From: Peristeroidobacter agariperforans
Lineage (GTDB): Bacteria > Pseudomonadota > Gammaproteobacteria > Steroidobacterales > Steroidobacteraceae
DNA: 64,000 bases
NCBI RefSeq assembly: GCF_004138335.1
Contig: NZ_RYFW01000002.1
Span: 1,345,501-1,409,500 of the forward strand
Direction of reading: 5' to 3'
The notes under the pieces: model-generated
The model's input: the letters and a program-made list of their open reading frames with translations, nothing else
Databases searched by the model: none
What the model was told of the DNA's origin: nothing
Part shown: piece by piece, positions 7,432 to 7,982 of the stretch
Layout of the letters: every line of letters begins with the position of its first letter
Numbering within the stretch: the first letter of the stretch is position 1
Position numbers and translations under genes: made by a program

Positions 7432-7466
7432 AGCGGTTGGCGGTTAGCGGTTAGCGGTTGGCGGTT
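7432..7466. repeat. Left heptamer array, five units of (A/G)GCGGTT
   Basis: Five perfectly phased 7-bp units read AGCGGTT, GGCGGTT, AGCGGTT, AGCGGTT, GGCGGTT, followed by a partial GG. Only the first base of the unit varies. The array begins directly after the upstream stop codon. The minus-strand four-helix-bundle gene ends inside it: its TAA stop is the junction between units 2 and 3, and its last residues (PPTANR) are translated repeat. Confidence 0.9.
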
Positions 7467-7857
7467 GGTGGGAGCAGGCCCTAGCGTGCGCCGCACGGCT
7501 CGATGCGGCCAAGCTGCGGATCAAACCGTTGAGGAGGCGACCGACTTCGGCGATCTCGTGCAGGGTCGTTGTGGCATCGCTTAGCAGTGCCAGTCTGCTC
7601 ACGATCATGTACTGGGTCTCCAGTTCGGCTAGCGAGCCCCTGGAGATGTGCAGGTACTGAATGAACTCGGCGCGGCTGCGTCGGGTGGAACCTTCGGCAA
7701 TGTTGCTGGGTATAGACACTGCAGCGCGCCTCAGCTGAGTAATCAGGCCAAAGCGCTCATCCCTGGGCAGTAGTCGAGTCCCAGCGTAGACTTTGCACGC
7801 GAGAGCGATCGATTTCTGCCACACAACCAGGTCTTTGTGACTGACGATCTTGTCCAT
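7444..7857 (-). CDS. Four-helix-bundle protein (23S rRNA intervening-sequence / Avd-like family)
   Basis: A 137-residue protein starting MDKIVSHKDLVVWQKSIALA and containing LITQLRRAAVSIPSNIAEGS, the signature of the four-helix-bundle family first found in intervening sequences of bacterial 23S rRNA and related to Avd of diversity-generating retroelements. The family forms pentameric nucleic-acid-binding barrels; its role outside rRNA is unclear. I choose ATG 7857 because it matches the family N-terminus. An ATG at 7929 would add 24 unrelated residues and has a poorly spaced AAGAGG. The C-terminus (HQPPTANR) is encoded by the left heptamer array. It is antisense to the operon. No reverse transcriptase or template repeat is visible nearby. 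Confidence 0.85.
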   Translation of the reverse strand: MDKIVSHKDLVVWQKSIALACKVYAGTRLLPRDERFGLITQLRRAAVSIPSNIAEGSTRRSRAEFIQYLHISRGSLAELETQYMIVSRLALLSDATTTLHEIAEVGRLLNGLIRSLAASSRAAHARACSHQPPTANR

Positions 7858-7940
7858 GATGCCGACGAATTCTGCAGGCCTGCGCGGCGCCGTGTGCTCG
7901 AAAGAGTAGGCAATCGCCGAGATATTCATTGCCTCTTACC

Positions 7941-7982
7941 AACCGCCAACCGCTAACCGCCAACCGCCAACCGCCAACCGCT
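7941..7982. repeat. Right heptamer array, six units of AACCGC(C/T), inverted copy of the left array
   Basis: Six phased units read AACCGCC, AACCGCT, AACCGCC, AACCGCC, AACCGCC, AACCGCT. They are the reverse complement of the left-array units. The array ends 3 bp before the epimerase ATG at 7986. If read in frame upstream of that ATG it would encode [16 protein letters not shown] residues, which I take to be non-coding. Transcribed with the operon, it could pair with the left array in a stem of roughly 35 bp. Confidence 0.9.

Follow-up and report, generated by a model that had tools for sequence, protein, structure and literature searches.

An S23 gene between inverted arrays of tandem heptamers: a candidate class of small intergenic elements in Bacteria

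Genes of the S23 family are known from the intervening sequences (IVSs) of 23S rRNA genes in Coxiella, Leptospira and other bacteria. Avd, which is a pentamer, works with a reverse transcriptase (RT) and RNA in DGRs, and MITE and REPIN-RAYT systems comprise many short gene-less copies together with a gene-bearing copy whose ends are alike. Excerpts of PMC4990558 describe tandem heptamers (GACAGAT) beside the S23 ORF of the Coxiella 23S IVS and a terminal stem of 28 bp, report RNase III cleavage of related IVSs, and term a Xanthomonas S23-family protein a homopentamer. Tandem heptamers of the forms GGGAATC and GGGGAYT have been described in Xanthomonas and Nostoc. Two Xanthomonas have 70 and 75 convergent pairs, for the most part intergenic, and 90% of the repeats there have the same neighbouring genes in two species; they were treated as G-quadruplex repeats that are in general unassociated with mobile elements, and the excerpted text mentions neither S23 nor a four-helix protein (Rehm 2015, PMC4692102). 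Intergenic TAACTGA tandem heptamers, direct repeats except for one that is inverted, are reported from Beggiatoaceae, cyanobacteria and Bacteroidetes with their origin left open, again with no mention of S23 or a four-helix protein in the excerpts (MacGregor 2015, PMC4679880). Among the papers listed in our literature search, which covered few subscription papers and no bioRxiv preprints, none tied S23 genes to flanking heptamer arrays, and none of the excerpts did so outside rRNA.

The DNA analysed here is a stretch of 64,000 nucleotides ("the window") on contig C10 of the Peristeroidobacter agariperforans genome (7.65 Mb, 97.89% complete; G000 among the genomes numbered below). The features of its S23 locus are as follows.

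6148 to 7431, plus strand: upstream host gene, whose stop adjoins the element; we take it, with the earlier note on this DNA, to be tviB.
7432 to 7466, plus strand: left heptamer array, five (A/G)GCGGTT (RGCGGTT) units (from sequence, arm pairing and TRF).
7467 to 7476, plus strand: left arm inner motif GGTGGGAGCA, one variant of the RGTGAAGAGG-like motif seen in the small elements described below.
7444 to 7857, minus strand: S23 (PF05635) four-helix-bundle gene, from its likely ATG at 7857 (from profile, model and fold search).
7931 to 7940, minus strand: right arm inner motif, GGTAAGAGGC on the minus strand.
7941 to 7982, minus strand: right heptamer array, on the upstream side of S23, with six units that read AACCGCY on the plus and RGCGGTT on the minus strand.
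7986 to 8993, plus strand: downstream host gene, taken from the same note to be an epimerase gene.

The left array starts directly after the tviB TGA (7429-7431) and the right array stops 3 bp short of the epimerase ATG (7986), where the earlier note had placed both ends, and its reading of five units, one minus-strand gene and six inverted units is correct to the base. With a length of 42 nt each, the arms at 7433-7474 and 7933-7974 are 93% complementary, and the two arrays have the top TRF scores, 58 and 79, among the 28 rows for the window. Folded as RNA, the element lies 7.55 SD below 100 dinucleotide-preserving shuffles (z -7.55), both arms pairing as a single long stem. S23 is the sole ORF inside and runs opposite to the host operon. 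Its open frame reaches from 7444 to 7929 (161 aa), but the start at ATG 7857, as in the related locus L058, is more likely than the one at 7929; the 3' end of the frame (...HQPPTANR) runs into the left array, so that gene and array overlap. The locus resembles a 23S rRNA IVS in its S23 family, its inverted ends forming a stem and its size of about 0.4-0.5 kb, but it lies between two protein genes and not in a 23S rRNA gene, and its genome holds dispersed gene-less copies.

The window protein matches PF05635 with an E of 1.6e-33 and passes the cut-offs of both PF05635 (115.5 bits, cut-off 33.8) and TIGR02436 (113.5 bits, cut-off 24). Its model has four helices (pLDDT 93.5) and is nearest to 2GSC (XCC0516; 44% identity, TM 0.85, rmsd 0.9 with 2gsc_D), followed by 2RLD (BT_0352) and then by Avd (4DWL, E 0.06); the structures 2GSC and 2RLD contain five chains each. 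Of the earlier label "23S-IVS/Avd-like", the S23 half therefore holds and the Avd half does not: the four-helix fold is similar (TM 0.72-0.74 and Foldseek E 0.06-0.08 against 4DWL and 8UBE), but the Avd profile scores 24.8 bits against a cut-off of 80, on which we reject Avd or DGR membership, and no RT is near, the only RVT_1 match in G000 lying on contig C9. S23 proteins carry little net charge (mean +1.4; above zero in 69 of 109 translated stretches, six of which contain stops), so that charge lends no support to nucleic-acid binding. PF05635 matches are present in 61 of 321 genomes of one class, and the window S23 protein had no match in phages.

The S23 profile finds a single gene in G000, and the heptamer of the window element is dispersed there. 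A search of that genome for the heptamer pattern with at most one mismatch gave at least 43 forward and at least 68 reverse matches; the reversed-pattern control matched as well (8 and 23), probably through overlap of the reversed unit with these very arrays. The 22 further sites that were read are all inverted pairs of GCGGTTN arrays that lack S23 and measure 72-165 bp. One such gene-less pair (L047, C10:1343928-1343999) lies about 1.5 kb before the start of the window. Exactly five uninterrupted units are present in 20 of 46 arms (the 22 small elements plus the window element; range 2-6), and a loose RGTGAAGAGG-like inner motif, whose first two letters continue the repeat, adjoins the array. 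The cores between the arms are not homologous: among 120 pairs of the 16 sufficiently long cores the best score, 15, came from array remnants, and the next was 10 against a shuffled maximum of 9. The gene-less elements therefore have only their ends in common, and are not ordinary MITEs; like MITEs they share ends, but MITE copies are not expected with unrelated cores, and the S23 element differs from both MITE and REPIN-RAYT systems in having no transposase inside and tandem heptamer arrays as its ends. The unrelated cores may be captured DNA, fast-decaying remnants or a sign that ends spread without cores.

Does this arrangement accompany S23 genes generally? An alignment of 18 S23 proteins was used as query against genome contigs and found at least 564 relatives, of which the best 80, from many phyla, were kept, loci being picked by protein similarity alone. 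Each was given an arm score, for which the 300 bp on either side of S23 were compared and their best ungapped reverse-complement match taken, with a threshold of 12. Arms scoring at least 12 were found at 72 of 79 loci (the best 80 of at least 564, one being left out for its short flank) and in 13 of 311 mismatched flank pairs; in a second set, from the window's class, they were found at 27 of 29 loci (30 returned, the window's own omitted) and in 14 of 229 controls. The pooled figure is 99 of 108. Random control positions in the same 80 loci gave arms in 22 of 320 cases at score 12, and a second draw, which had a strand bias, in 23 of 640. Runs at lag 7 occurred in 45 of the 79 flank pairs, in 27 of them on both flanks; lag 14, a multiple, occurred in 44, lag 8 in 14 and any other lag from 2 to 15 in at most 6. 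At control positions lag-7 runs numbered 17 of 237, none on both flanks, and these are probably other arrays nearby. The mismatched-flank, lag and random-position controls lead us to reject chance or local repeat noise as the source of the arms.

Unit length is kept while the heptamer itself varies between loci. In 93 arms of at least 18 nt the best period was 7 in 64, 8 in 12 and none in 17. Octamers (AAGGCATT-like) were seen in twelve S23 elements, L111, L125, L129, L147, L163, L167 and L175 among them. The polarity of the arms is fixed: on the S23 sense strand the upstream arm has G>C in 93 of 99 cases, C>G in 4 and a tie in 2, as compared with 43 to 23 in DNA lying over 60 nt away from the arm on its outer side and 16 to 7 in control-position arms; over the entire 300 bp upstream of S23, arm included, G exceeds C in 70 of 80. 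Common to the 68 clear heptamers is a loose consensus, NN(A/G)G(T/G)GA, of 3.82 bits, whereas 40 shuffled sets given the same number of restarts reached no more than 2.96. Gene and arrays form one unit, as had been proposed from the window, and it is not local, the same architecture occurring in many phyla; inverted arrays do flank S23 at non-homologous sites, as the earlier note had asked, but with a heptamer that varies between loci. Family members lacking arrays, which would speak against this, amount to at most 9 of 108 loci, and by eye these nine sub-threshold loci mostly have weak, direct or contig-cut arrays (in L187 the flank is cut by the contig end). At L115 (Faecalibacter rhinopitheci) long AGGGACT-type arrays stand on both sides of S23 in direct and not inverted order.

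Plasmids carry the unit as well: all five plasmid S23 loci opened (of 31 records matched) have inverted heptamer arms, in three independent contexts. At L287 a tRNA-Gln gene (1335-1408) lies within about 100 bp of S23 (from 1501), a landing place outside protein operons. When 136 S23 loci were searched for 11 short rRNA motifs, L128 and L187 alone contained one motif each, and an rRNA context was rejected.

The S23-element heptamer also occurs elsewhere in its own genome in 7 of 10 genomes (G000, G003, G007, G008, G240, G271 and G364), these ten having been chosen for clear heptamers and not at random. In G000, G003 and G007 this heptamer is GCGGTTN. Among 16 genomes, three-fold GAGTTCK was found only in G252, where all 7 matches are at the S23 element and the heptamer is confined to it, and in G240 (43 matches), which has three S23 matches, one locus of which was read and contains AGTTCTN in its arms. 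Three-fold AGGGCCA was found among the 16 only in G271 (157), in agreement with its S23, and three-fold GTGAATR only in G364 (221, agreeing with its S23 locus L279) and G362 (209); the S23 arms of G362, against the rule, read GGGAATA and not its frequent GTGAATR. Reversed controls for these three heptamers were all 0. Three-fold GCGGATN numbered 107 in G008, 59 in G012 (reversed control 1 and 1), 3 in G002 and 0 in G000, and the S23 gene of G008 at the tviB site carries GCGGATA. The frequent GCGGTT/GCGGAT arrays of G012 are absent from all four of its S23 loci, and G006 (84% complete) has arrays and no S23 match. Heptamer distance falls as S23 identity rises, from 3.33 below 40% (925 pairs) through 2.60 at 60-70% (40 pairs) to 1.33 above 70% (6 pairs), although as an argument for co-variation this is weakened because related species inherit both S23 and repeats by descent. 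Some arrays reach about 14-17 units (G364 C1:214252-214349 and 348289-348407; G362 C2:310841-310959), as against the usual five, so that array length is able to run away.

Of 118 genomes compared as relatives (G000 included), 16 have S23 and 8 have exact GCGGTTN triplets, these 8 all being members of the genus; reversed controls of the triplet search gave 1 and 4 in G000, 5 and 13 in G008, and a few in G003 and G006, probably again from overlap with the arrays. Many S23 genes elsewhere in the genus and family stand between inverted arrays of GACGGTT, AGGCTGT, GGGTGAC and other heptamers (by eye, uncounted). At E <= 1e-100 a tviB protein could be identified in 10 of the 14 genus genomes, and in 7 of these 10 S23 follows it (G000, G001, G003, G007, G008, G009 and G011). 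Recognisable arrays remain in G000, G003, G008 (as GCGGATA) and partly in G007, and none are recognisable at the tviB-site copies of G001, G009 and G011. G013 has a weak S23 match near tviB, below the cut-off; the G002 site is a short gap without a gene, and that of G010 holds other sequence. The presence of S23 at the tviB-epimerase junction in 7 of 10 genomes argues that this copy is an old insertion kept vertically while its arrays turn over. The earlier note held that the same gene and arrays at this junction in all relatives would speak against a mobile element; the shared junction is there in those seven, but arrays have changed or become unrecognisable in some and sites without the unit exist.

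For eight of the 22 small elements of G000 the same place was examined in 3-5 relatives apiece (32 stretches in all), and no relative compared has a GCGGTT array at any of these eight sites. Three (L032, L034 and L037) look like insertions into a short gap between stop and start, and at L042, L043 and L045 the gap is too diverged for the ends to be placed. At the other two, L035 and L039, relatives have the same core without a GCGGTT array, some with other heptamer-like repeats. The whole S23 element is present or absent at two cyanobacterial plasmid sites with well conserved and intact flanking genes. At the first it is present in plasmids 1 and 2 of Calothrix brevissima NIES-22, and in four relatives (L310-L312 and L318) stop and start lie within a few bases of each other and the element is absent; at the second it is present in Nostoc plasmids L307 and L308, absent from C057 p057_A and p057_K and from UHCC 0302, and p057_H has other sequence. 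At this second site, a TraM-hypothetical junction, L314 (Nostoc sp. ATCC 53789 pNsp_c) has inverted GGGAACN-type arrays without S23, and is a natural gene-less derivative of the S23 element. The plasmid element replaces about 10-45 bp of the gap, gain and loss not being polarised, and no target-site duplication was seen at the eight chromosomal and two plasmid sites, whose exact ends are uncertain. The Calothrix and Geminocystis copies have integrase genes nearby, beyond the arrays, and the Calothrix integrase is also present at element-free sites. Sites without the unit, for which the earlier note proposed to look, exist at two plasmid positions and in chromosomes. Its phrase that the element "inserts without harming genes" may reflect survivorship, since harmful insertions would be lost.

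We therefore read the window locus as one copy of a Bacteria-wide class in which a single S23 gene stands between inverted tandem-heptamer arrays in intergenic gaps, a reading to which we give a probability of roughly 0.6. The S23 product probably binds the arrays and leaves the chemistry to host enzymes. In such a scheme S23, pentameric in the solved relative, would bind several of the heptamer units in one arm or in both, in the form of single-stranded DNA, hairpin DNA or transcript, and would bring the ends together or protect the hairpin; host replication, repair or recombination enzymes would then copy the element into a new gap, and gene-less pairs with the same heptamer could be served in trans. 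Paired in the transcript, the arms would offer RNase III a long stem to cleave, and such cleavage would let operons, and rRNA in the case of the classical IVS, tolerate the element. The match between a pentamer and the commonest count of five units is suggestive only. A bolder form of this reading, to which we would give even odds, is that of a mobile class with no transposase, recombinase or RT of its own, whose S23 pentamer reads a private heptamer at both ends and spreads via host enzymes, heptamer and protein drifting as lock and key, with the IVSs and the Xanthomonas, Nostoc and Beggiatoa repeats as offshoots.

An alternative that we consider unlikely is that inverted heptamer pairs spread independently by a host route and that S23 is a passenger or parasite lodged inside them. 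Gene-less pairs outnumber S23 copies in G000 by at least 22 to 1 and have unrelated cores, G006 has arrays without an S23 match, and the frequent heptamers of G362 and G012 are not seen at their S23 genes, all of which would suit a passenger. On the other hand, 99 of 108 S23 genes lie within such a pair, in one orientation in 93 of the 99, which argues against random capture, since that is expected to give both; heptamer similarity also tracks S23 similarity, and G008 combines GCGGATA arrays at its tviB-site S23 with its 107 GCGGATN matches where G000 has none.

It is rather more doubtful that the element is a host regulatory device that does not move, its transcript stem serving as a processing or attenuation site between cistrons and S23 as the regulator. 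The strong stem (z -7.55), the position between cistrons, the vertical retention at the tviB site and the RNase III cleavage of related IVSs (PMC4990558, in excerpt) agree with this, but S23 elements occur in many gene contexts and phyla, present/absent pairs leave host genes intact, the window's S23 gene runs against the direction of its operon, and arrays are unrecognisable at three of seven tviB-site copies although the operon is retained.

An RNA-mediated retro-element, with a stem transcript bound by S23 and copied by a host RT, seems to us similarly doubtful. The resemblance of the S23 model to Avd and the one RVT_1 match in G000 point towards it; no RT lies within the elements read, the Avd profile score is far under its cut-off, and RVT_1 matches are absent from two array-rich and nearly complete genomes, G008 (98% complete, 326 array matches) and G271 (100%, 157). 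These two genomes make the RT route less likely and lead us to reject a need for RT, though an RT could since have been lost. G362 has 41 RVT_1 matches in one 5.1-Mb genome.

Local origin by slippage and template switching at hairpins, with one arm copied from the other and no element movement, could account for the variable unit numbers and for the resident cores at L035 and L039 that relatives lacking the array have in common, but is most improbable, as the order of the variable letters is not mirrored between arms (29 of 79 matches, null mean 0.447, P 0.94), which gives no support to recent arm-to-arm copying, and a heptamer at many unrelated sites together with an S23 gene needs transfer.

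Returning to a Bacteria-wide class of S23 elements, every known kind with which the element was compared disagrees with it in one defining feature or more; within the literature searched, both the link between S23 and arrays and the element class appear new. The 23S rRNA IVSs and the Xanthomonas and Nostoc heptamer repeats may belong to it. The arms of a Dyella S23 locus (L144) read GGGAATA/GGGAATC, like the Xanthomonas repeats; the 90% of repeat positions shared by two Xanthomonas species (PMC4692102, in excerpt) count against the main reading. Direct tests are feasible, as the protein has only about 120-140 residues and the array 35 bases. Should the IVS prove to be the same element, then the class would so far be known only from that one landing site, and the 23S rRNA IVS would be one landing site of a general element. 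The common protein family PF05635, whose function has so far been unknown, would gain a role, the intergenic heptamer repeats of open origin (PMC4692102 and PMC4679880, both in excerpt) would be explained, and an element able to spread with no known enzyme of its own would represent a new mechanism.
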